Assembly: GCA_019348255.1 (NCBI GenBank)
Contig: JAHWJU010000006.1
Span: forward strand, 1-55,071
Source: Actinomycetota bacterium
GTDB taxonomy: Bacteria > Actinomycetota > Acidimicrobiia > Acidimicrobiales > CADCTF01
Direction of reading: 5' to 3'
DNA length: 55,071 nucleotides
Shown in pieces: positions 17,452-29,896 of this stretch. Positions within the stretch are counted from its first letter, which is position 1; every line of letters begins with the position of its first letter. The position numbers and the translations under genes are program-made. The notes beneath the pieces are model-generated. The model was not told the origin of the DNA and did no database searches. It worked only from the letters and a program-made list of their open reading frames with translations.

Positions 17452-18540
17452 ATGCTCGCCGTCGTCAAGGTCGGCACCTCGTCCATCACCAGCCCCTGCG
17501 GCGTCATCGACCGCGACGCGGTGGCCAAGCTGTGCGACGAGGTGGCGGCGCTGCGAGCGCAGGGTCACCAGATGGTGGTGGTGACCTCGGGGGCCATCGC
17601 CGCCGGCCTGCCGGCGCTGCAGATGAGCCGGCCGTCGGACCTGGCCACGCTCCAAGCCGTCGCCGCCGTCGGCCAGAGCCGTCTCATGCGGGTCTACGAC
17701 GAGGTCTTGCAGGGCCATGGCCTGGTGGGTGGGCAGGTGCTGCTGGCGCCGCTCGACTTCGTCCACCGTTCCCAGTACCTCCACGCCCGCCAGACGGTGC
17801 TGCGCCTGCTCGAGCTGGGCGTGATCCCCATCGTGAACGAAAACGACGCCATCGCCGACGACGAGATCCGCTTCGGTGACAACGACCGGCTGGCGGCGCT
17901 GGTTGCCCACCTGGTGGGGGCCGACACCCTGGTCCTGCTCACCGACACCCCCGGCCTCTACACCGCCGACCCGCGCCTGCACGAGGACGCGTCTCTCATC
18001 GAGGAGATCCTGGAGGTCGACCACGAGCTCGAGCAGGTGGTGGCCGGCGGCATCGGCTCCGACAGGGGCAGCGGGGGAATGGCCTCCAAGCTGGCGGCGG
18101 CCAAGATCGCGGCCTGGTCGGGGGTGCGGGCGGTCATCGCCGGCGCGGCGCGACCGGGGGTGCTCGCCGCCGCTCTCGCCGGCGAGCCCGGCGTCGGCAC
18201 CGTTTTGCGCCCACGCGACCGGCGCCTGCCTGCCCGCAAGCTCTGGATCGCGTTCGCCGTCGGCGCCTCGGGAACGGTGGTGGTCGACGACGGAGCCCGC
18301 CGCGCCCTCATCGAGCGCAACACCTCGCTGTTGCCGGCCGGCGTGACGGGGGTGGAGGGGCGGTTCGACGCCGAGGCGGCGGTGGAGATCGCCGGCGCCG
18401 ACGGCAAGGTCTTCGCCAAGGGCCTCGTCCGCCACGGAGCGGTCCGCATCCGGGAGTGGGCCGGGCGGCGCACGGCCGAGCTGCCCCCGGACCTCGCCCA
18501 CGAGATCGTCCACCGCGACGACCTCGTCATGCTCCCCTGA
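17452..18540 (+). CDS. proB: Glutamate 5-kinase with PUA domain
   Basis: ProB phosphorylates glutamate in the first step of proline synthesis. The 362 residues comprise an amino-acid kinase domain (VVKVGTSSI near 4-12, VVTSGAIAAG near 45, VNENDAIADDEI near 131, GSGGMASKLAAA near 205) and a C-terminal PUA domain from about 270. It starts at ATG 17452, one base after obgE. Its partner proA is not adjacent but 6.25 kb away, separated by the minus-strand PspA cassette. The two genes are adjacent in many genomes, which suggests insertion of the cassette. Confidence 0.95.
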   Translation: MLAVVKVGTSSITSPCGVIDRDAVAKLCDEVAALRAQGHQMVVVTSGAIAAGLPALQMSRPSDLATLQAVAAVGQSRLMRVYDEVLQGHGLVGGQVLLAPLDFVHRSQYLHARQTVLRLLELGVIPIVNENDAIADDEIRFGDNDRLAALVAHLVGADTLVLLTDTPGLYTADPRLHEDASLIEEILEVDHELEQVVAGGIGSDRGSGGMASKLAAAKIAAWSGVRAVIAGAARPGVLAAALAGEPGVGTVLRPRDRRLPARKLWIAFAVGASGTVVVDDGARRALIERNTSLLPAGVTGVEGRFDAEAAVEIAGADGKVFAKGLVRHGAVRIREWAGRRTAELPPDLAHEIVHRDDLVMLP

Positions 18541-18545
18541 GTGGC

Positions 18546-19325
18546 TCAGCTGGTGGCCGTTCCGCCTTCCACCTGCGCCGTGCCGGCGCCCTCGGCCGGC
18601 GCTGCCTCGAGGCCGAGCTGGGCCCGGATCTGGCTGAGGCGGGCCTGGGCCTCGGAATCCATGGCCGCCTTTTCGACCTCCAGCATCCGGGACTCCACCG
18701 TCTCACCCTGGATCTCCGACGTCCCGAGCGCCTTGGCGTAGCGGGTCTCGATCTTGTCCCGGACCTCGTCGAAGGTGGGGACGTCCTGGCCCACCGTCTC
18801 CGACAGCGAGGCCATGGCCTTGTTCATCTGCTCCTGCATCTTGGCCTGGTCGAGCTGAGAGAGGAGCTTCTGGCGCTCCGTGAGCCGCTGCTGGAGCACG
18901 ACGGAGTTCTGTTGCACCGCTCCCTTGGCCCGGTCCGACGCCTGGGTGGCGGCCAGGTGCTGCTCCTTCAGCGACTCGACCTGCTTCTCCACGGCGATGA
19001 GCCGGTCGGCGAAGGACTGGGCGGCGTTGGTGAGCTCGGTGGCGCGCTTGGTGTCACCCTGTTTCTGGGCGTCGTCGGCCATGAGGACGGCCTGGCGCGC
19101 CTTGGCGTTCAACCCCTCGAGCTCCTGCATGGCCCGGTTGAGCTGCATCTCGGTCTGCTTCTGGTTGGCGATGACGTTGGCCGCCTGCTCCTTGAGCCGG
19201 CGGTGCTGGTCCTGGGCCTCGATGATCGCCTGCTCCAGCTGCACCTTGGGGTCGGCGACCTCGTTGAACTTCCCGGTGAGGGCGGCGGTGATGTAGCGGC
19301 CGATGCGCCGCAGCAGTCGGATCAT
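18546..19325 (-). CDS. pspA: PspA/IM30 family membrane-stress protein
   Basis: PspA/IM30 proteins are ESCRT-III-like and assemble on damaged inner membranes. The 259-residue protein has the family layout: an amphipathic N-terminal helix (MIRLLRRIGRYITAAL), ADPKVQLEQAIIEAQ near 24-38, and long Gln/Lys/Glu-rich coiled coils to about residue 225, followed by a low-complexity Ala/Gly tail. It is the last gene of the six-gene minus-strand cassette, 18 bases after the coiled-coil gene, and has a private -10-like TAACCT seven bases upstream. It converges on proB with five bases between the stops. Confidence 0.92.
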   Translation of the reverse strand: MIRLLRRIGRYITAALTGKFNEVADPKVQLEQAIIEAQDQHRRLKEQAANVIANQKQTEMQLNRAMQELEGLNAKARQAVLMADDAQKQGDTKRATELTNAAQSFADRLIAVEKQVESLKEQHLAATQASDRAKGAVQQNSVVLQQRLTERQKLLSQLDQAKMQEQMNKAMASLSETVGQDVPTFDEVRDKIETRYAKALGTSEIQGETVESRMLEVEKAAMDSEAQARLSQIRAQLGLEAAPAEGAGTAQVEGGTATS

Positions 19326-19332
19326 GCCGGCC

Positions 19333-19338
19333 AGGTTA
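19333..19338 (-). promoter_or_regulatory. Putative -10 hexamer for pspA, leaderless
   Basis: On the minus strand TAACCT ends 7 bases before the pspA ATG, allowing pspA to be expressed apart from the rest of the cassette. Confidence 0.45.
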
Positions 19339-19343
19339 GGCCG

Positions 19344-20114
19344 CTACCCCGTCGCCGTCGTGCCCTGTGGCCGTTCTGTCTCCTCCAGGGCCTGACGGAG
19401 GGATTCCAGTTCGACCACCACCCCCTCCACGTCCTCGCTGAGTGGCCCGAGGTCGCTCACGTCGGCCGCGTTGAGCGAGATCTCCAGCGATCTCGCCACC
19501 GCCTCGTTGAGCTGGGCATTGAGCAGGCGGAGCCGGTCGGTGGCATCCTCGGCGACTCGCCGAAGGCGCTCCACCGAAGCCAGTTGCGCCTCTATGGCTT
19601 TCTGCGTGCGCGCCAGCGAGCCGGCCGCGAGGTCGTCGCCTCGGGCCCGCCGGCGCTCGTCTTGCACCTCGACCAGTTGCCGGCGGATGTGCGGCTCGTC
19701 GAGAGTCTGCAGCGCCCCGACCAGGGCGTCGCCCTGGCACGCGATGCGCCAGCACTCGGACACGCCGTCGCCGATGCGCCGGCCGATCACCCGTAGGCGT
19801 TCCTGGATCACGCCCGACTGCGACCGGCGCACCACATCGTCGAACCGGCGCTGGGCGTTCAGCGCATCGGCCACGAACCGGCGCCAGGGCTCCTGCACCG
19901 CCATCGGGTTGATGCGTTCGTCCTGCTGGCGACGAGGCACGGCCAGGGCCACCCGGGCGGCCCAGGCGGCCGCCCCGGCCAGTACCGCCAGCGGGCCCAG
20001 GCCACCGATGATGCCGACCGCGGTGCCCGCGCCGGCCAGCAGGATGGCCGACGGCGACACCACCGCCTCGGCCACCGCTCGGGTCCTCACCCGCTCCGGT
20101 AGGCGAGCGATCAT
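19344..20114 (-). CDS. Membrane-anchored coiled-coil protein, unknown function
   Basis: This 256-residue protein has two adjacent hydrophobic helices near residues 20-57 (SAILLAGAGTAVGIIGGLG, LAVLAGAAAWAARVALAV) and then a charged helical region to the C-terminus rich in Arg, Glu, Leu and Ala, consistent with a cytoplasmic coiled coil. The layout loosely resembles XpaC-type proteins that accompany TelA/PspA-like genes, but I see no diagnostic motif. ATG 20114 is only two bases after the VWA gene stop, so it belongs to the cassette. A role as a membrane anchor or partner of PspA is plausible from position alone. Confidence 0.72.
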   Translation of the reverse strand: MIARLPERVRTRAVAEAVVSPSAILLAGAGTAVGIIGGLGPLAVLAGAAAWAARVALAVPRRQQDERINPMAVQEPWRRFVADALNAQRRFDDVVRRSQSGVIQERLRVIGRRIGDGVSECWRIACQGDALVGALQTLDEPHIRRQLVEVQDERRRARGDDLAAGSLARTQKAIEAQLASVERLRRVAEDATDRLRLLNAQLNEAVARSLEISLNAADVSDLGPLSEDVEGVVVELESLRQALEETERPQGTTATG

Positions 20115-20116
20115 CG

Positions 20117-21913
20117 TCAGAAGTTGGAGATGACGGCCGTGAAGACCTTGTTGATGGTCTGGGGGTCGCTGGCGTCGTAGCTCGCGGCGTTGGTCGCCTC
20201 GGCCAATCGCTTCAGTACGTTTTTGTCCGCATCGCTGCCGTAGGCGATGGTGAACAACCTCACGGGCGATCTGGCCTGTCCCTCGGAACCGGCCCGCAGC
20301 TTGGCGATGGTGGCGTTGAGATCGTTGAAGTCGTCCTCGTTGCGGCCGTCGGTGAGCAGCACCACGGCGTTGATCCGCTCAGGGTCGTACTGGGCCTTCA
20401 TGAACTCGAAGGACGCGATGGAGGTGGTGTAAAGCGGAGTGCCCTCGGTGGGGACGAGGTTGTTGATGCGGCTGGCGATGGTCTCTCGGTTCTGGGAGAT
20501 CTCGCCGATGGGAACCAGGTCGAGGAAGTCGCGGGGCTCCCTGGGCGAGATGTTCGTGGAGAAGATCCGCAGTCCCACCTGGTCCTCCGCCTTGAACTGG
20601 GACAGCGCCTCGACGGAGGCCCGCTTGGCGAGGTCGAGTTTGGTCTCACCACCTTCGACCTCCTCGCCCATCGACCCCGACACGTCGACCACCAGCAGCA
20701 CCTTGGCCGCCTTGCGCTGCTCCCCCCACTTGTCGAGCAGCCGGCTGAGGACGTCGGGCGCGGGGACGCCCAGAGTCGTCTGCGGCTGACCCGGGTCGAC
20801 GCCGTTGGCGCGGACGATTGGCTCACCGACCGCCACGGACGGATTGCCGGGGCGGAAGCCGAACTGCAGCACCTTGCGCTGGTTGGCAGGCTGTTGCACG
20901 AAGGCCTCGAAGGCGCGAGCCGCGGTCTTCTGCTCGTCTTTCACCCAGCTGGCGTCGAGAACGAAGAAGGGGTTGTCGCTGAAGAGCGTCCCGTCTTTCG
21001 GGTAGACGGCGACGAGCGGAACCCGGGGCTTCCGCGGCTGTTCACCGGGGTCGAGGATGCCGTCGGGATTGCCGGCGTTGTAGTCGAGGATCGACTTCTC
21101 CTCGACGGCGACGGCAGAGATGTACGTGAGCCCGGCCCCGGCACGGTCGTTTCGGTACAGGCCGTTGAGGAAGGTCGGCGTGATGTCGCCGTAGTGCACT
21201 ACCGACGACTCGACGCCTCGCATGAAGGCGTCCACGTCGGGGCGGCCGAGGTCTTCGAGGGTGAGGTCACTCTGCTTGCCGGTCGCCGCGTAGTACTGGG
21301 CGATCGTGGCCGACAGCCCGCTGGTCGAGAAGTTGGGGTTCGTCTTGCCCAGCTTGAACGCACCCCACTCGGGGTGCCCCTTGCTGGCCCAGCCTTCCGG
21401 GCTCTTGGCCAGGGCGAGCAGGTCGGCGAAGCCGATCGGGGTCTCCGGGTACCCGAGAGCGTCGGCCATGGGTTTGGGCATGGCGATCACGAGGGGCGTG
21501 ACCATGAACGGCTTGGCGTCGTCGGGGGCCATGGGTTTGGCGCCCTTGGCCTGCAGCCTGTGGTTGAGGATCGCGCCCCACGAGCTGGCCGACGGTGACC
21601 AGATCACCGGCCGGGGGCCGTCGGTACCGGGGGTCGGCCAGCCATCGGCGAGCAGGGTGGCCCCGACACCAGAGGAGGTCTTGTTGACCCGCACGAAGGC
21701 ACACGGCTCGGCCTTTCTGGCCCCGTCACTGTCGTTGAACTTTTCGGCCAGCTCGGTTAGCAGGTCGAACTTCTCCGGCGACACGGCCATGTCGACGGCC
21801 GCGCAGCCGGAGGGGACGTCGCCGCCGGCGCGGTCCGAGTCGACGTCGACGTCGCAGGCGCCGGCCAGCAGCGCCAGGACCATCACCAAAAGCGACAACC
21901 GACGCCGTCTCAA
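20117..21913 (-). CDS. Lipoprotein with solute-binding-like domain fused to VWA domain
   Basis: The 598-residue exported protein starts with a basic n-region (RRRR), a hydrophobic stretch and the lipobox LAGAC, placing the lipidated Cys near residue 20. Residues about 35-380 resemble an extracellular solute-binding (type 2 periplasmic-like) domain with SPEKFDLLTELAEKFN and WSPSASSWGAIL. A von Willebrand factor A domain fills the C-terminus, with MIDAS VVDVSGSMGEE near 408, TPLY near 480 and VVLLTDGRNEDD near 517. VWA domains bind protein partners through Mg2+. TTG 21913 overlaps the previous stop as TTGA and gives a clean signal peptide; a longer start at 21988 would put Arg-rich sequence and a 79-base overlap in front. 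It is the central gene of the cassette. Confidence 0.85.
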   Translation of the reverse strand: MRRRRLSLLVMVLALLAGACDVDVDSDRAGGDVPSGCAAVDMAVSPEKFDLLTELAEKFNDSDGARKAEPCAFVRVNKTSSGVGATLLADGWPTPGTDGPRPVIWSPSASSWGAILNHRLQAKGAKPMAPDDAKPFMVTPLVIAMPKPMADALGYPETPIGFADLLALAKSPEGWASKGHPEWGAFKLGKTNPNFSTSGLSATIAQYYAATGKQSDLTLEDLGRPDVDAFMRGVESSVVHYGDITPTFLNGLYRNDRAGAGLTYISAVAVEEKSILDYNAGNPDGILDPGEQPRKPRVPLVAVYPKDGTLFSDNPFFVLDASWVKDEQKTAARAFEAFVQQPANQRKVLQFGFRPGNPSVAVGEPIVRANGVDPGQPQTTLGVPAPDVLSRLLDKWGEQRKAAKVLLVVDVSGSMGEEVEGGETKLDLAKRASVEALSQFKAEDQVGLRIFSTNISPREPRDFLDLVPIGEISQNRETIASRINNLVPTEGTPLYTTSIASFEFMKAQYDPERINAVVLLTDGRNEDDFNDLNATIAKLRAGSEGQARSPVRLFTIAYGSDADKNVLKRLAEATNAASYDASDPQTINKVFTAVISNF

Positions 21914-22800
21914 CTCAGTCGTCCCCGCAGAGCCAATAGCACGCCGGGCGAGGGTAGCCCGTCGTCGCCCGATCCCGGACCCGCCCAACCTTCCGACAGG
22001 AGCGATCGCGCTGTCGCCTCCTTGTCGAAGGAGCGGGGGAGCTTCCCGGTGGTGGCCAGAACCGCATCGACGCTGGTGGTCGGCGCGGGATTCACCACGG
22101 TCACCGTCGGCGGAGGCGTTCCGGCTGTCGCCGCCGTCGTGAGATAGACGGCGACGTCGGGAGCTTGGATCAAGAACCGTTGGAGGTCCGTGGCGTTGCG
22201 GGCTCTCGCCTGCCCGACGCGGGCTTCGAGGTTGGCCAAGAGGTCTTCGGCCCGGTCGAGGTCGTTGCTCGCGTAGCTGGCGTCTCCGAAGAACCCGTTC
22301 AGCACGGCGGCGCGCACGAACAGCCCGGACGGCGATTCAGGGGTGTCGGCGCCGATCAACAAGCGGGGATCCTGGTCGACCGCATCGGCGAGGCACTTCC
22401 ATGACGGCGTGGCTGCACATGCCGGCGGCAGCCGGCCCTGTTTTGCGACCGCCACGACCGGTGTACGTCCCAGGGCCTCGAACCCGGTGAAGAGCGTTGC
22501 CTTGTTCGCGAGCTTGCGGGCATCGTCGACCATCGCCGCCCACGGTCCAGGAGCGAGCCACGCCAGAAGTTCAGTCTCGTCCGGCCCGCGGGCGGCTATC
22601 AACCGGTCGGTTGTCGTACCGGCCGGCTCGACCACAGCAGCGGGGATCGACTGGCAAACCGGGCCGAGCTCGGAGGCGCACACGACGGTGCCGGCGGCCT
22701 TGCTCCCGCCGGAGGCGCCGCCCGGCAGGCCGTAGCGGTAGACGAACGCACCGGCCACCATGCTCACGGCCGCCACGAGGGCCAGGACCCGCGCGATCAT
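21910..22800 (-). CDS. Exported solute-binding-like protein, unknown ligand
   Basis: The 296-residue protein has an N-terminal hydrophobic helix (VLALVAAVSMVAGAFVYRYG), either a signal anchor or a signal peptide without an obvious lipobox, then an extracytoplasmic domain with four early cysteines (CASELGPVC and later CAATPSWKC). The pattern of ILLIGADTPESPSGL-like strands and helices resembles type 2 solute-binding domains, as does the N-terminal half of the following VWA lipoprotein, suggesting the two interact or share an origin. ATG 22800 overlaps the AAA+ stop as ATGA, and its own stop overlaps the next TTG start. No close functional match is recognised. Confidence 0.75.
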   Translation of the reverse strand: MIARVLALVAAVSMVAGAFVYRYGLPGGASGGSKAAGTVVCASELGPVCQSIPAAVVEPAGTTTDRLIAARGPDETELLAWLAPGPWAAMVDDARKLANKATLFTGFEALGRTPVVAVAKQGRLPPACAATPSWKCLADAVDQDPRLLIGADTPESPSGLFVRAAVLNGFFGDASYASNDLDRAEDLLANLEARVGQARARNATDLQRFLIQAPDVAVYLTTAATAGTPPPTVTVVNPAPTTSVDAVLATTGKLPRSFDKEATARSLLSEGWAGPGSGDDGLPSPGVLLALRGRLS

Positions 22801-24221
22801 CAGCCGCCCATCACCGCCTCCGCCGTCGGCACGGGGGCCGCCGGCGGGGGCACGACGTCTTCGGCCAGCAACTCCATCAGCTGTTCGTTCGTGGGCTCGC
22901 TGATCGTCACCAGCCGGCTGGCCTGGTGGGCCATGGCGGATTCGAACAGGTTGCGGGCCAGCCTGCCGTTGCCGAACCCCTTGTCCCGCGGCTGGCTCTG
23001 GAAGTACCGGCTGGCCGCCGCCTTGGCCTCCGCGCCACAGGTGTAGGACGACTTCTTGCACATCGACTCGAAGATGCTCACCAGCTCGTCATTGGTGTAG
23101 TCCGGGAAGTGGATGGTCTTGGGGAAGCGCGACCGCAGCCCCGGGTTCGACTCCACGAACTTGTGCATCTCGTCGGGGTAGCCGGCGGCCACCACCACGA
23201 TGTCGTCGCGGTGGTCCTCGATCAGCTTGACCAGGGTGTCGGTGGCCTCCTGGCCGAAGTCCTTGTCGCCCCCCCGGGCCAGCGCGTACGCCTCGTCGAT
23301 GAGCAGCACCCCCCCCAGCGCCGAGTCGAACACCTCCTTGACCTTGAGCGCGGTCTGGCCCACGTACCCGGCCACCAGCCCGGCCCTGTCCGTCTCCACC
23401 AGATGGCCCTTCTCCACCACCCGCAAGGTGCGGTAGATCTGAGCCAGCAGGCGCGCCACCGTGGTCTTGCCGGTTCCGGGGTTGCCGGTGAAGACGAGGT
23501 GGCGGCTCGACTCGACCACGGGCAAACCCCGGTCCTCCCGGAGCTTTTGCACCTGCAACAGGTTCGTCACGAGCTTCACCTCGGCCTTCACCGGCGCCAG
23601 GCCGATCAGCCCGTCCAGCTCCGCCAGCAGCTCCTCGATGGGCCGAGCCGGCTCCTCGGGCGCGGGTGACCGCGCCGCGGCGGCATCGCTGGCCGGCGCG
23701 CCTGCGGCTCCACCGGGGCGGGGAAGGCCCCTGCGGTCGAGGGCGCGCAGCAACACGTTGCGGAAGCGCTCCACCGCCGCGAGCTCGCTCTCGCTGGCGA
23801 CGGCGTCCAGCGCGCAGACGTTGTGGGCCAGCCGGATGGCGCGCTCGTAGTAGGTCCACGCATGGCGGGTGCGCTGGCGGCGGTCCGTCTCCACCAAGAT
23901 GTCGAAGAGCAGTGAGGGAGCGGCCAACCAGCTGCGCTTTCCAGCCACCAGCTGGGCTTCCCGCACGTCGTCGGGCGTGGCGTAGGCCGGAAGGGACGGC
24001 AAGCGGGAGGCGAAGGCGCCGATCAACGCCCAGAGCTCGGCATCGGTGTGGCGCCCGTCGGCATCGACCACAGCGGCCACCAGGTTGAAGGCCTCGACGG
24101 TGACGTCCATCGGTGGCTTGTCGGGCGGCATCCCGGGCACGATGTCGTGCGCGATCTGCGCGAGCACCGGCGACAGGTCGTCGATGAACTGGCGCACGGG
24201 CGCTTCCAGCAGGTCGTCCAT
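22800..24221 (-). CDS. CbbX/CfxQ-type AAA+ ATPase with N-terminal helical domain
   Basis: The 473-residue protein has an N-terminal alpha-helical region of about 150 residues that looks TerB-like (AFNLVAAVVDADGRHTDAEL), a Pro/Ala linker near 170-195, and a C-terminal AAA+ domain of the CbxX/CfxQ group: Walker A FTGNPGTGKTTVARLL near 244, pore-loop-like GYVGQTA near 285, Walker B GGVLLIDEAYAL near 305, and sensor and arginine residues in NPGLRSRFP near 360. CbbX remodels RuBisCO, but no RuBisCO gene is nearby; here the ATPase more likely drives remodelling within the PspA/VWA cassette. ATG 24221 is seven bases after the lipoprotein stop. Confidence 0.85.
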   Translation of the reverse strand: MDDLLEAPVRQFIDDLSPVLAQIAHDIVPGMPPDKPPMDVTVEAFNLVAAVVDADGRHTDAELWALIGAFASRLPSLPAYATPDDVREAQLVAGKRSWLAAPSLLFDILVETDRRQRTRHAWTYYERAIRLAHNVCALDAVASESELAAVERFRNVLLRALDRRGLPRPGGAAGAPASDAAAARSPAPEEPARPIEELLAELDGLIGLAPVKAEVKLVTNLLQVQKLREDRGLPVVESSRHLVFTGNPGTGKTTVARLLAQIYRTLRVVEKGHLVETDRAGLVAGYVGQTALKVKEVFDSALGGVLLIDEAYALARGGDKDFGQEATDTLVKLIEDHRDDIVVVAAGYPDEMHKFVESNPGLRSRFPKTIHFPDYTNDELVSIFESMCKKSSYTCGAEAKAAASRYFQSQPRDKGFGNGRLARNLFESAMAHQASRLVTISEPTNEQLMELLAEDVVPPPAAPVPTAEAVMGG

Positions 24222-24228
24222 GGGGCCG

Positions 24229-24786
24229 TCAGTCTGCCTGGCCGGGCCGGCGGAGCCGGACCACCGCCCGGCCAGCAAGGGCCACGGCCATCCTCTCCAC
24301 CTGCGGTGGGGGAGTCGCCGCGACCTCCAGGGTCACGTAGGACCGCCCGACCAGGACGTGCAGCGTCGCCGTCTCCTCGACGTAGATGGCTCTGTCTCCC
24401 AAGCCCGGCTCTTCCTTGGCATTGGGGTACTGGCCGAGCACGGCATCGAAGCGGGCGCCGGCGCTGAAGCCGGTCCGGCGCACCTCGTCGGCCATGTCGG
24501 TGGTACGCACCAGCTCCACCAGCACGGCCTTCGAGTCGTCGTGGGTGGCCCAGGCGCAACCGCTGCGCCCCGCCAGGGCATCGGTGGCCGAGGATTGGCT
24601 CGCCGCTGGTCCCGCCACCGGCCCCTGCAGGATCTGTTCCACCTCGGTCTTCGCCAGGAGCTGGCAGGCGGCCAGGCGGCGAGGCTGGCCTTCGGCATCG
24701 CCGCACCCGCTCTGCACCAGGCCGGCGAGCACCAGCACCGCCATCATCAACGACCTCGCCGGCCTGTGGCACGGGCGCCGGTACAT
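24229..24786 (-). CDS. Small secreted lipoprotein, DUF3558-like
   Basis: The 185-residue protein carries a basic n-region (MYRRPCHRPAR), hydrophobic core and lipobox LVQSGC near residue 26, followed by CQLLAKTEVEQILQGPV and SGCAW, the layout of DUF3558 actinobacterial lipoproteins. It is the first gene of the minus-strand cassette. ATG 24786 is seven bases from the divergent proA ATG at 24794, so its promoter must overlap proA coding sequence. A shorter start at 24747 (MMAVLVLAG) is possible but lacks positive charges. A longer in-frame reading from 24882 overlaps proA and is rejected. Function unknown. Confidence 0.7.
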   Translation of the reverse strand: MYRRPCHRPARSLMMAVLVLAGLVQSGCGDAEGQPRRLAACQLLAKTEVEQILQGPVAGPAASQSSATDALAGRSGCAWATHDDSKAVLVELVRTTDMADEVRRTGFSAGARFDAVLGQYPNAKEEPGLGDRAIYVEETATLHVLVGRSYVTLEVAATPPPQVERMAVALAGRAVVRLRRPGQAD

Positions 24787-24793: not shown

Positions 24794-26047
24794 ATGGCGA
24801 CCACGCAACTCAGCCTCCCAGACCTCGGCCGGAGAGCCAAGGCCGCCTCCCGCGCCCTCGCTCTCGTGCCCACCGCAGCCAAGGACTCGGGCCTCCAGGA
24901 GGGGGCTGACCTTCTTCAGTCACGCGTGGGGGAGATCCTGGAGGCCAACGGCGCCGACGTCTCCCGCGCCCAGGAGGCGGGGACGGTGCCGGCGGTGGTG
25001 GACCGGTTGCGGCTCGACGAGAGCCGGCTGGAAGGGATGGCAGCCGGGCTGCGTGACATCGCCGGGTTGCGCGATCCGGTGGGGGAGGTGCTCGAGGGCT
25101 GGACCCGGCCGAACGGGATCCACATCGACCGCGTCCGGGTCCCCCTCGGTGTGGTCGGGATCATCTACGAGAACCGACCGAACGTCACCAGCGACGCCGC
25201 CGGGCTCTGCGTCAAGTCCGGTAACGCCGCCTTCCTCCGCGGCTCGTCGGCGGCGATCGACTCGAACCGAGCCATCGCCGCGGTGCTCAGAGAGGGCTTC
25301 GCGAAGGCGGGCCTGCCGGAGGACTCGGTCGTCCTGGTGGAGGACACCTCCCGCCAGTCGGCGACGGAGTTCATGCGGCTGCGAGGGATCATCGACTGCC
25401 TCATCCCGCGGGGCGGCCCCTCGCTCATCTCCGCCGTGCTCGAGCACGCCACCGTCCCCTACGTGATCGACGGCGACGGTAACTGCCATGTGTACGTCGA
25501 CGCCTCCGCCGACCTCGAGATGGCGGTGGCGCTGGTGCACAACGCTAAGACGTCGCGGCCGTCGGTCTGCAACGCGGCGGAGTCGCTGGTGGTGCACGAA
25601 GCAGTGGCGGAGCGCTTCTTGGCCATGGCGGCCACCGCCCTGGAGGGCGTCGAACTGGTGGGCGACGAGGCGGCGCAACGGATCCTGCCGTCGATCGGCC
25701 AGGCTTCGGAGGAGGACTTCGGACGGGAGTTCCTCGACCTGAAGATGAGCGTGGCCGTGGTCCGGTCGCTGGACGATGCCATCACCCACGTGAACCGGTT
25801 CGGCTCCGGCCACAGCGAGGCGATCGTCACCACCGACCTCGTCGCCGCCCGCCGCTTCGTCCGCGAGGTGGACGCCGCGGCGGTGCTGGTGAACGCGTCC
25901 ACCCGCTTCGTCGACGGCGGCGAGTTCGGCTTCGGCGCCGAGATCGGCATCTCGACCCAGAAGCTCCACGCGCGAGGTCCGATGGGCCTGCGTGAACTGA
26001 CGACGACCAAGTACCTCATCCACGGCAACGGCCAGATCAGGGTCTGA
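24794..26047 (+). CDS. proA: Glutamate-5-semialdehyde dehydrogenase
   Basis: ProA reduces glutamyl-5-phosphate to glutamate semialdehyde with NADPH in proline synthesis. The 417 residues carry the family blocks PLGVVGIIYENRPNVT near 117-132, KSGNAAFLRGSS, the catalytic cysteine in SRPSVCNAAE near 260, and EFGFGAEIGIST near 377. ATG 24794 gives the normal length; the longer in-frame reading from 24386 lies antisense to the lipoprotein gene and is rejected. The gene is separated from proB by the PspA cassette. Confidence 0.95.
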   Translation: MATTQLSLPDLGRRAKAASRALALVPTAAKDSGLQEGADLLQSRVGEILEANGADVSRAQEAGTVPAVVDRLRLDESRLEGMAAGLRDIAGLRDPVGEVLEGWTRPNGIHIDRVRVPLGVVGIIYENRPNVTSDAAGLCVKSGNAAFLRGSSAAIDSNRAIAAVLREGFAKAGLPEDSVVLVEDTSRQSATEFMRLRGIIDCLIPRGGPSLISAVLEHATVPYVIDGDGNCHVYVDASADLEMAVALVHNAKTSRPSVCNAAESLVVHEAVAERFLAMAATALEGVELVGDEAAQRILPSIGQASEEDFGREFLDLKMSVAVVRSLDDAITHVNRFGSGHSEAIVTTDLVAARRFVREVDAAAVLVNASTRFVDGGEFGFGAEIGISTQKLHARGPMGLRELTTTKYLIHGNGQIRV

Positions 26048-26088: not shown

Positions 26089-26994
26089 ATGTCCGTGGCC
26101 ATGAACCCGCCTTGGCGCTTCGACTCCGTGGCCGCGGTGCGCGACGGGCTACAGGGCGTCGACTACCTCTCCGACGAGGGCATCGCCGGCGTCGTCTACC
26201 TGGCCGACCGCCTCGGGAAGCCGGTGCTGGTGGAGGGGCCGGCCGGTACCGGTAAGACCGAGCTGGCCAAGAGCACCGCTCGCATGACCGGGGCCCGGCT
26301 CATCCGCCTGCAGTGCTACGAGGGGTTGGACGAGGCCAAGGCGCTGTACGAGTGGAACTACAAGAAGCAGCTCCTCCGCATCCAGGCCCAGCGGGTGGGC
26401 GAGGAGGCCGGCGCCGGCGGCTGGAGCGAGATCGAGGACGACATCTTCAGCGAGGACTTCCTGCTCACCCGCCCGCTGCTCGAAGCCATCCGGTCCCCCG
26501 AACCGGTGGTGCTGCTGATCGACGAGGTGGACCGGGTGGAGGTGGAGACCGAAGCCCTGTTGCTCGAGGTGCTGTCGGACTATCAGGTGTCGATCCCCGA
26601 GCTCGGCACGGTGGAGGCCGCCTCCATCCCGCTGGTCTTTCTGACCTCCAACAACACCCGTGAACTGTCTGAGGCGTTGAAGCGGCGCTGCCTCTACCTG
26701 CACCTCGACTACCCGACGCTGGAGCGGGAGAAACAGATCGTCCTCACCCGGGTGCCGGACGTGTCGGACCATCTTGCCGACCAGATCGTGCGCATCGTGC
26801 GCTCGATCAGAAGCCTCGAGCTGAAAAAGCACCCGTCGGTGTCGGAGACCATCGACTGGGCCCGCACCCTGGTGCTGCTCGGACTGGACAACATCGATGC
26901 GGATCAGGCCAAGCAGACCCTGCACATCCTGCTCAAGTACCAGTCCGACATCGCCAAGGCCGCGAAGGAGCTCAGCGTCAACGGCGCCCGCTGA
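26089..26994 (+). CDS. MoxR-type AAA+ ATPase
   Basis: MoxR ATPases act as chaperones, commonly with VWA proteins, for metal-enzyme maturation or complex assembly. The 301-residue protein has Walker A VEGPAGTGKTELAKS near 48-62, Walker B PVVLLIDEVDRVE near 140, sensor 1 LTSNNTRELS near 183, and an arginine finger region LKRRCLYLHLDYP. It is paired with a VWA protein starting 18 bases after its stop, the standard MoxR/CoxE arrangement. No CO dehydrogenase or other obvious client is encoded nearby. Confidence 0.9.
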   Translation: MSVAMNPPWRFDSVAAVRDGLQGVDYLSDEGIAGVVYLADRLGKPVLVEGPAGTGKTELAKSTARMTGARLIRLQCYEGLDEAKALYEWNYKKQLLRIQAQRVGEEAGAGGWSEIEDDIFSEDFLLTRPLLEAIRSPEPVVLLIDEVDRVEVETEALLLEVLSDYQVSIPELGTVEAASIPLVFLTSNNTRELSEALKRRCLYLHLDYPTLEREKQIVLTRVPDVSDHLADQIVRIVRSIRSLELKKHPSVSETIDWARTLVLLGLDNIDADQAKQTLHILLKYQSDIAKAAKELSVNGAR

Positions 26995-27012
26995 GCGTCC
27001 GGCGCGAGATCG

Positions 27013-28434
27013 ATGATCAACCTGCTGGCCGGGTTCATCCAGGAGCTGCGCGACGCCGGACTACCGGTCTCGCTGACCGAGAACCTCGATGCCATGGAGG
27101 CACTGCGCCACGTCCCCCTCGACGACCGCGAGGCGTTCAAGTACGCGCTGGCCGCCACCCTCGTGAAGAACAACAGCCACTGGAAGACCTTCGAGACCGT
27201 GTTCGAGGTCTACTTCTCGTTGCGCGGGCCGCACTACGCGATCGCCGGGCTCGACGAGGGCGACGAGAAGGTGGCAGAGCTGGTGAGCGAGATGCTGGGC
27301 CATGGGGAAGGCGGCGCCGGCATGGAGGCCCTGTCGCCCGAGGAGCTGGCCGAGATGCTCTACCGCGCCCTGCAGGACGCGGACGAGGCGATGATGCAAG
27401 CCATCGCCCGACACGCGGTGCAGCGGTTCGCCGGCATGGAGCCGGGGCGTCCCGTGGGCGGCACCTATTACCTGTACCGCACGCTGCGCAACCTCGACCT
27501 CGACGGGGTGCTGGAGAAGCTGCTGGCCGAGGCCCAGGACTCCTCGGACGGACTGAGCGAACTCGAAGAGCGGCTCGTCCGAGACGAGTACGAGCACAGG
27601 ATGGACAAGCTGCGCAAGGAGATCGAGGCCGAGATCCGCCGGCGCCTGGTAGCCGACCGCGGAGCCGAGGCGATGGCAAAGACGCTGCGCCGGCCGCTGC
27701 CGGAAGAGGTCGACTTCATGCACGCCAGCCGGGAGGAACTGGCCATGATGCGCCGGGCCATCCACCCCCTCACCCGGCGACTGGCGGTGCGGCTGGCCCG
27801 CAAGCGGCGCCACGGCCGCAGGGGCCCCCTCGACTTCCGCGACACGGTCCGGCACTCGCTGTCCTACGGCGGTGTGCCGGCAGAGCCCAAGTTCAAGTAC
27901 CCACGGCCGTCGAAGCCGGAGATCGTGGTCATCGCCGACATCTCCGGGTCGGTGGCTGCTTTCGCCCGGTTCACGTTGCAGTTCGTCTACGCCATGAGCA
28001 CCCAGTTCTCCAAGGTGCGCAGCTTCGTGTTCATCGACGGCATCGACGAGGTGACCAGGTTCTTCGACGGCGTGGACGACGTGATGGACGCCGTCCACCG
28101 CATCAACACCGAAGCAGACGTCATCTGGGTCGACGGCCACTCCGACTACGGCCACGCACTGGAGACCTTCTGGGACCGGTGGGGCAGGGACATCACCCAG
28201 AAATCCAGCGTGATCCTGCTGGGCGACGCCCGCAACAACTACCACGCCTCGGGCGCATGGGTGGTGAAGGAGATCGAACAGCGGGCTCGGCACGTCTACT
28301 GGCTCAACCCCGAACCCCGGGCCTACTGGGACACCGGCGACTCCATCGTGAGCGAGTACGGCGCCCACTGCGACGGCGTGTTCGAGTGCCGCAACCTGAA
28401 ACAGCTCGAGCGCTTCGTGGAGCAGCTGGCCTAG
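27013..28434 (+). CDS. VWA domain protein, CoxE-like
   Basis: The 473-residue cytoplasmic protein has an N-terminal helical domain ([20 protein letters not shown]), a charged middle region with [22 protein letters not shown] and [24 protein letters not shown], and a C-terminal VWA domain whose MIDAS is [12 protein letters not shown] near residue 312; [11 protein letters not shown] and [11 protein letters not shown] follow. This matches CoxE/YehP-type partners of MoxR ATPases. Its stop codon overlaps the stop of the convergent SPFH gene in CTAG. Confidence 0.87.
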
Positions 28435-29399
28435 CTCTTGACCGCTCCGTTGCCGGCGAGGGTGTCGCCGCTGCCGAAGAGCTCGCGCATGCCCCCCAGG
28501 GCGCCGAGCACGGCCATCGCCTCGGTGGGGAGGAAGACCTTCGTGGCCTGGCCGTCGGCCACCTTGGCCAGCGTCTCCAGGTACTTGATGGCCAAGACGT
28601 CCGCGGTGGGGTTGCCGGTGTGGATGGCGTCGTAGACCTTGCGGATCGCTTCGGCCTCGCCCTCGGCCACAGCCACCTGCCGGTACTTCTCGGCTTCAGC
28701 CCATGCCCTGGTGGCCTCCGCCTGGCCCTCGGCGTCGAGGATCTGGGACTGGCGGTGCCCCTCGGCGGCAAGGATCTTCGACTGCTTGTCGCCCTCGGCC
28801 CTGGCGATGGCCGCCTCGCGGTCGCCCTGGGCGGTGGTGACGGTGGCCCGCCGCGTCCGCTCGGCCTTCATCTGCTCGTGCATGGCCGACATCACGTCCG
28901 AGGGCGGGTCGATGCGCTGGATCTCCACCCGCACCACCTTGGTGCCCCACTTGTCGGTGGCATCGTCGAGGATGTTGCGCAGCTGGGTGTTGATGGTGTC
29001 ACGGGAGGTGAGGGCCTCGTCGAGCTGCATGTCGCCGACGACGTTGCGGAGGTTGGTCTGGGCCAGCTTGGTCACCGCCAGGTAGAAGTCGACCACGTTG
29101 TAGACGAGCCGCTGGGGGTCGGTGGCCTCGTAGTAGACGACGGCGTCGACCGAGACCACCACGTTGTCGGAGGTGATCACCTCCTGGGGCGGGATGTCCA
29201 CCACCCGCTCCCGCATGTCGACCCGCACCATGCGGTCGATGAAGGGGAAGATGAGGCGGAGCCCCGGCTCGACTGTGGCGTGGTACTTCCCGAGGCGCTC
29301 CACCAGCCCCCGTTCGAACGGGCGGATCACTTTGACGCCGCTCACCACCACCATGAAGAAGATGAAGGCGATGGCGGCAAGGAGAACGACGAAGGGCAT
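28431..29399 (-). CDS. SPFH/band 7 protein, paraslipin-like
   Basis: SPFH proteins form large membrane-associated rings that organise membrane microdomains and proteases. The 322-residue protein has an N-terminal membrane helix ([19 protein letters not shown]), the SPFH core ([16 protein letters not shown] near 23-38; [17 protein letters not shown] near 82-98), and a C-terminal Ala/Glu-rich coiled coil. ATG 29399 lies two bases after the NfeD gene stop; SPFH-NfeD pairs are widely conserved. The convergent VWA gene ends in the same CTAG. Confidence 0.9.
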
Positions 29400-29401
29400 G
29401 G

Positions 29402-29896
29402 CTATGACACTCCTTGTGCGGGAAGGGCCGTGGGCGGCTCTTCCAGGGGTAGGACAACCAGCCGGGTTCCATCGACGCGGGTGACGAGGACGGTGGAGCC
29501 TTTGGGGATCGGCATTCCGGTGAGGCTCTCGGCCCGCCACTCCTCCCGGTCCAGACGTATGACACCCGTCGCTCCCGATCCCGGCCCGATCTCCTGCACC
29601 ACCAGTGCCTCCCGGTTGACCCAGCGGTTGGCGCCACTGGTGGAGCTGGGGGTACGGGCATCGAGCTGGCGGGCCAGCGGTCGCATGGCCGCGAAGCTGG
29701 CGACGGAGGCACCCAAAAAGACCAGCCACTGGACGGTGAGCGGCGCGCCGGCGAAGGCCGTGACGGTCGCCAACAGCGCACCGAAGGCGAACGGCGCCAA
29801 GAAGAACGACCCGGCCAGAGCCAGCTCGCCGGCGGTGAAGCCGATGACGGCCAGCATCCAGATCCACCGCCACGTCTCAGGCTCGTTCCAGCCCAT
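29402..29896 (-). CDS. NfeD-like membrane protein
   Basis: The 164-residue protein has hydrophobic helices near 12-30, 33-52 and 55-72, followed by a cytoplasmic OB-fold domain ([37 protein letters not shown]), the arrangement of short NfeD1b proteins that partner with SPFH proteins. It lacks the N-terminal ClpP-class protease domain of long NfeD forms. It precedes the SPFH gene by two bases, so the pair is co-expressed. Confidence 0.87.

Follow-up and report, generated by a model that had tools for sequence, protein, structure and literature searches.

A conserved, unnamed PspA operon of Acidimicrobiia with a CbxX/CfxQ-type AAA+ ATPase and a predicted surface sensor pair

In the 55,071-nucleotide contig JAHWJU010000006.1 of an Actinomycetota bacterium (assembly GCA_019348255.1; positions 1 to 55,071, forward strand, hereafter the window), six genes located at 18546-24786 form a tight minus-strand cassette that ends with pspA. 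Five of them, encoding a CbxX/CfxQ-type AAA+ ATPase, an exported protein (EXP), a lipoprotein combining a solute-binding protein (SBP) domain with a VWA domain (SBP-VWA), a helical protein with two transmembrane (TM) segments (CC) and PspA, constitute a conserved and still unnamed set in soil and water actinobacteria, which probably connects a putative surface sensor pair, via CC and the AAA+ ATPase, to PspA. The source assembly is a 3.0-Mb metagenome-assembled genome (MAG) of 314 contigs, and the closest named relatives by SBP-VWA protein are uncultured Actinomycetota/Acidimicrobiales. In the order of transcription, the cassette consists of:

24229..24786, minus strand: small lipoprotein, 185 aa, lipobox LVQSGC, outside the conserved module
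22800..24221, minus strand: CbxX/CfxQ-type AAA+ ATPase, 473 aa, AAA and AAA_lid_6, helical N-terminal domain at residues 1-165
21910..22800, minus strand: EXP, exported protein, 296 aa, N-terminal membrane anchor, predicted type-II solute-binding-protein fold
20117..21913, minus strand: SBP-VWA, SBP_bac_11 and VWA lipoprotein, 598 aa, TTG start (PF13531, PF00092)
19344..20114, minus strand: CC, two-TM helical protein, 256 aa, described from hydropathy and alignment, in no Pfam family
18546..19325, minus strand: pspA, PspA/IM30 family, 259 aa (PF04012)

Gene linkage was read in two samples, namely 58 relatives of the same order and the best 80 of 499 relatives found by an SBP-VWA alignment scan of a genome collection, taken with their flanks. 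Genes of the relatives were called with a simple codon-usage caller, and their starts are approximate. Among the 58 relatives, full-length matches to AAA+, SBP-VWA, CC and PspA lay mostly in one cluster between proB and proA. Among the best 80 loci, the same-strand upstream neighbour of the VWA gene was EXP in 70/78 cases and its downstream neighbour was CC in 64/74, the AAA+ gene preceded EXP on the same strand in 48/69, and CC was followed by the lipid II flippase gene murJ (33) or by pspA (19) in 52/65. The 4-base overlap of EXP and VWA found in the window was also seen in 34 of 70 loci. All five genes were present in 41/80 loci, many of the others ending at contig ends, and the order AAA-EXP-VWA-CC-(MurJ)-PspA recurs in dozens of genomes from different families. 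This five-gene linkage is far beyond chance.

The occurrence of AAA+, VWA and CC also depends on the presence of PspA. All genomes with a full-length AAA+ (22/22) or VWA (16/16) contained PspA, against a base rate of 39/59 relatives, and in a sample of the phylum the same was true for VWA (22/22) and CC (21/21), with a base rate of 173/397. Fifteen genomes were selected for having no visible PspA or AAA+ beside their EXP-VWA-CC triad, and each of them (15/15) holds exactly one PspA. Where this PspA could be placed, it often stood with MurJ (L288-L290, L293), next to proB wherever the flank had been read. In other lineages PspA presumably stands beside a TPM-like protein, an impression gained from the sequences.

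Partial forms of the operon make a nested series. Among the reduced forms are a lone pspA between proA and proB (L082), CC-pspA without AAA or sensors (L076-L080, some with extra genes) and AAA-CC-(MurJ)-pspA without sensors (L102, L104, L110, L112). The triad EXP-VWA-CC was found detached in other contexts (L180-L192), of which L181 and L183 lie between genes that we take, from their sequences, to be pth and mfd, and L189-L192 lie in unrelated surroundings. Also, the triad is rearranged and intact as VWA-CC-EXP in L170, and the cultured Desertimonas flava (L175) presents CC-EXP-VWA-CC-MurJ, its pspA being encoded on the other strand. Strain IMCC26207 (L169) has the combination VWA-MurJ-PspA. 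Outside the order, we detected VWA-CC-PspA (L240) and VWA-(divergent CC-like)-PspA (L230). SBP-VWA genes of other actinobacteria are solitary or lie beside other genes; in two of these bacteria (L226, L227) what we take to be a TPM-like exported protein follows SBP-VWA in place of CC, the L227 protein having no Pfam match. That these neighbours form no functional unit and were kept together by chance is highly improbable. Nothing beyond the limits of MAG data speaks for it, and for the five-gene core it is refuted by the neighbourhoods, i.e. by an order conserved over many families, by rearranged yet linked forms and by detached triads in unrelated contexts.

Chance neighbourhood does hold for the sixth gene, the 185-aa lipoprotein. 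The first-pass annotation had counted six genes, whose co-occurrence was to be checked in gene neighbourhoods, and only five of them travel together. The lipoprotein had no match in the 58 relatives, the sister family member included, and no Pfam or NCBIfam match; in the sister family member, no lipoprotein gene is present and 57 bp separate the start of the AAA+ gene from proA. Being a singleton, it was rejected as a module member and is a local addition, though its codon usage is coding-like. A gene cluster considered as the missing lipoprotein (c15) proved to be a GNAT acetyltransferase, and a GNAT acetyltransferase gene is often located upstream of AAA+ in the relatives.

The cassette lies between two plus-strand genes:

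17452..18540, plus strand: proB (TIGR01027), convergent flank, separated from the pspA stop by 5 bp
24794..26047, plus strand: proA (PF00171), divergent flank, with 7 bp between its start codon and that of the lipoprotein gene

The six open reading frames were found where the first-pass annotation had placed them, antiparallel to proB and proA, and in all six the G+C by codon position matches coding DNA. From 5' to 3', the spacings are +7 (lipoprotein/AAA+), -1 (AAA+/EXP), -4 (EXP/VWA), +2 (VWA/CC) and +18 (CC/PspA). The gaps of 7, 2 and 18 bases and the TTGA overlap at the TTG start codon of VWA had been read correctly, whereas the AAA+/EXP junction, described as an ATGA overlap, measures TGATG, a one-base overlap. 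The cassette had also been called inserted between proB and proA, and as an event in this genome this does not stand. Most relatives whose pspA neighbourhood was read have pspA next to proB, mostly between proB and proA, whether the other genes accompany it or not, so that the word is misleading. The arrangement is old in the class, and genes have since been lost, gained or moved.

Other genes share this neighbourhood. A Band_7/SPFH (slipin-like) and NfeD gene pair is located 2.4 kb past proA (window 28431-29896, minus strand). In the relative G011 (L073), and also in L119, proB and pspA have an NfeD-Band_7 pair directly between them, and a Band_7 with an NfeD-like gene lies between proA and pspA in L091; Band_7/NfeD next to pspA agrees with the published Band-7/PspA neighbourhood. 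In another relative (L089, G028), pspA genes stand in tandem beside proB, and one of them has diverged strongly (branch length 2.98); a homologue of MurJ is encoded close by, while the AAA+ lies on a different contig.

The PspA of the window matched PF04012 with 106 bits (E=2.8e-30; curated cut-off 33.9), which places it in the PspA/IM30 family (ESCRT-III superfamily). Its nearest solved structures are PspA/Vipp1, and it is present as a single copy in the source assembly. No TM segment was predicted in PspA or in the AAA+ ATPase. The CC protein shows, in sequence order, a positive stretch, a TM hairpin close to the N terminus (roughly residues 17-60), a second positive stretch and a predicted cytoplasmic helical domain; its C terminus would be inside, because positive flanks border the hairpin. 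None of the 22 CC members scanned fell in a Pfam family, and PF25587 (PspM, Rv2743c) was not among the families matched by these members or by the window CC (E up to 1), the mycobacterial PspM control scoring 274.7 bits. An hhalign comparison of CC with PspM (E=0.001, probability 21%, 71 columns) is within noise, and coiled-coil decoys (PspA-type proteins) reached E 2e-4 in a related profile search. The identification of CC as PspM was thus rejected; in its position and topology CC corresponds to PspM, while the hhalign signal for homology stays at the level of noise. No ClgR helix-turn-helix gene lies beside the window pspA, whose flanks are CC and proB. PspB, PspC and PspF had no match among the six cassette proteins, the remaining genome not having been searched for them.

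The AAA+ ATPase is of the CbxX/CfxQ type, with an AAA core and a CbxX-type lid. It is closest to CbbX, SpoVK and EccA, and its nearest structures are those of CbbX (3syk, 3zuh) and EccA1 (9lur). It constitutes its own subfamily, as its scores remain below the curated cut-offs for SpoVK (298 of 423 bits), CbbX (243 of 459) and EccA (236 of 467). The Walker A and Walker B motifs are invariant, and a conserved G-Y/F-V/I-G-Q-T loop stands at the position of YIG, the pore loop of CbbX. A profile scan matched no MIT domain in the protein, which is nearest to CbbX and not to the Vps4 clade. The N-terminal domain is possibly TerB-like. Pfam TerB was matched by 2/19 members with a best E of 0.012, a suggestive D-x6-E motif occurs in both repeats as in TerB, and hhalign to TerB gave E 0.022 over 25 columns; membership is not established by these values. 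A PDB profile search with this domain gave no match, and Foldseek with the whole AAA+ model is uninformative on it, since the matches shown were AAA+ modules. The ATPase could also act on a target other than PspA or CC, e.g., an unlinked enzyme, in the way that CbbX acts on its substrate Rubisco, the operon then grouping separate envelope genes under one promoter. Such a target would suit the unsure identity of the N-terminal domain and the three genomes in which the AAA+ gene is apart from the cluster (L097, L100, L106), but the same-strand AAA+ before 48 of 69 EXP genes and the PspA found in all 22 AAA-positive genomes make this rather unlikely.

On the sensor side, SBP-VWA matched PF13531 (E=2.7e-15) and PF00092 (E=1.5e-12), and its lipobox Cys20 as well as the VWA metal-site residues D410/S412/S414, T492 and D522 are invariant in 15 homologues. 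The AlphaFold2 model of EXP (pLDDT 84, pTM 0.79), compared with the PDB by Foldseek, gave hundreds of matches to type-II periplasmic binding proteins (best E 4e-8, TM-scores about 0.4-0.55), and SBP_bac_11 was matched directly by 3 of 12 family members. On the evidence of this model, EXP adopts a type-II solute-binding fold. It possesses an N-terminal anchor and four invariant cysteines, and these cysteines fit an extracytoplasmic placement. Taken together with SBP-VWA, two solute-binding modules are therefore predicted outside the membrane. The trans-envelope layout suggested in the first-pass annotation is thus supported by the predicted topologies of SBP-VWA, EXP, CC, AAA+ and PspA, the small lipoprotein no longer being part of it. 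The second solute-binding-fold protein and the frequent murJ in the operons of relatives are additions to that annotation.

Elsewhere in the source genome, a second CC+EXP pair is located at a contig end (L217, G000:C260:1-588) and a second CbxX-type AAA core at G000:C285:2086-2886; these may represent a further copy of the sensor module. Also, a MAG labelled Bifidobacterium breve (L165) carries an SBP-VWA of the Acidimicrobiia type, and its organism name is probably wrong.

The presence of an AAA+ and a VWA protein in the same operon brings to mind a maturation machine, in which the pair would insert a metal or assemble a surface complex, as chelatases or COG0714-VWA modules do, while PspA would only buffer membrane damage. 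Pairs of AAA+ and VWA genes with a predicted part in secretion or membrane remodelling have been described (PMC5898192), and the VWA metal site is invariant here. However, the AAA+ is CbxX-type and not MoxR-type, it is predicted to be cytoplasmic whereas the VWA lipoprotein is outside, which leaves no direct contact, and AAA occurs with CC/PspA in loci without VWA (L102, L104, L110, L112). Because of the opposite membrane sides and the non-MoxR AAA+, a direct AAA+-VWA pair was rejected as unlikely, and we consider the maturation machine improbable. An unrelated, second AAA/VWA pair, a MoxR-type AAA+ (MadB-like) with a VWA_CoxE protein (MadC-like), lies directly after proA (window 26089-28434, plus strand) and is kept at that place in most relatives.

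In about half of the operons, murJ (PF03023 E=3e-94) is located between CC and pspA. MurJ was found together with VWA, CC and PspA in 29/80 loci, and pspA follows 31 of the 33 MurJ genes located after CC or VWA. That murJ is present in many operons points to lipid II export and wall synthesis as part of what is protected. One publication considered as a PspA/MurJ link (PMC7478892) was discarded, the matches being promoter names such as Pspank. The same counts would also suit a cell-wall-precursor module, in which a precursor or fragment of the wall would be bound by EXP and SBP-VWA and these two would regulate MurJ, PspA and AAA+ serving as membrane-integrity accessories, and MurJ and PspA do stay together where the triad is detached (L288-L290, L293). 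Nevertheless, the window operon has no murJ and the MurJ of the source genome is on another contig (C40), about half of the operons are without MurJ, and the triad occurs without it. We hold this explanation to be doubtful, though still worth keeping in mind.

The reading that we tentatively put first is an Acidimicrobiia-type Psp system, that is, a conserved envelope-maintenance operon with a sensor pair, a CC linker, an AAA+ remodeller and PspA. We infer from the data above a complex, a direction of signalling, a substrate for the ATPase and a physiological role as follows. The membrane-anchored EXP and the lipoprotein SBP-VWA would form an outside sensor of a ligand or wall-derived signal, and the VWA metal site would switch contacts. 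CC would relay the state across the membrane and recruit PspA; it fits a linker because it alone is common to the PspA/AAA-side and the sensor-side subsets. The cytoplasmic AAA+ would then extract or redistribute PspA and/or CC subunits, in analogy to Vps4, the remodelling ATPase that acts on ESCRT-III, so that the PspA coat may be assembled and recycled. MurJ function may be among the protected processes. The intact aromatic loop and ATPase residues of the AAA+ count in favour of this reading. Several observations weigh on the other side. The AAA+ gene is away from pspA in L097, L100 and L106, so linkage by itself does not make PspA the substrate. The EXP-VWA-CC triad also occurs with no AAA or PspA adjacent to it, the AAA+ is nearest to the Rubisco-directed CbbX and lacks a MIT domain, and the hypergeometric p values of the co-occurrence (3e-4 to 5e-9) ignore phylogeny. 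The stronger version, in which PspA with a dedicated CbxX-family disassembly ATPase is steered by an SBP/SBP-VWA receptor pair via a two-TM linker and is coupled to lipid II export as a complete signal-controlled ESCRT-like machine, appears unlikely to hold in full.

Literature searches revealed no published characterisation of the same module, in line with the first-pass annotation, which knew of no characterised system with this set. Of the two outcomes that this annotation had set as refuting it, genes not travelling together and an existing characterisation of the module, neither was thus obtained. The main text of a 2022 survey of PSP neighbourhoods (PMC9239133) does not mention VWA, and further searches, which did not extend to supplementary files, to most subscription journals or to the actinobacterial Psp review of 2018, gave no description of this gene set. 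PspA is a member of the ESCRT-III superfamily (PMC8281802), and the bacterial members PspA and Vipp1 are without a confirmed Vps4-like turnover ATPase (PMC8281802; PMC11746142), which makes the AAA+-PspA question worthwhile. The cassette AAA+ is a defined candidate for this turnover, with intact motifs and a genetic tie to PspA in one bacterial class. The operon also provides a candidate for an envelope sensor as well as a connection with MurJ, and gives a functional context to SBP+VWA proteins orphaned in several other actinobacteria.

Among known systems, the mycobacterial and corynebacterial ClgR-PspA-PspM(-PspN) system resembles the cassette in that PspA stands beside a two-TM membrane partner. 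In the PspA tree, L240 (VWA-CC-PspA, outside the order) has a PspA that branches as sister to the mycobacterial clade partnered with two-TM PspM (support 100/100), and a two-TM PspA partner may predate the modern mycobacterial PspM system. The cassette differs by the absence of a ClgR gene, by a CC that is not PspM, and by the additional AAA+, EXP, SBP-VWA and often MurJ. With CbbX/SpoVK/EccA (CbxX/CfxQ), the AAA+ shares an AAA module 44% identical to CbbX, the same lid and the same aromatic pore-loop position, and differs in its N-terminal domain and in scores below all curated equivalog cut-offs. MoxR (COG0714)-VWA modules (PMC5898192) also link an AAA+ gene to exported VWA and membrane proteins, whereas here the AAA+ belongs to another clade, VWA is fused to a solute-binding domain and PspA is present. 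The likeness to ESCRT-III/Vps4 is a PspA of the ESCRT-III superfamily with a proposed dedicated AAA+ partner, which has no MIT domain and lies outside the Vps4 clade. The closest published idea concerns operons of PspA or bacterial Snf7 that also encode AAA+ ATPases and PBPB/OmpA solute-binding proteins, read as ATP-dependent membrane remodelling (mSystems 2024, PMC11237479). These operons share with the cassette an ESCRT-III-like protein, an AAA+ and a solute-binding domain, and neither VWA nor CbxX is mentioned in the main text of that report. The Psp theme is already known, and its combination with SBP-VWA, EXP, CC and a CbxX-type AAA+ appears to be new.

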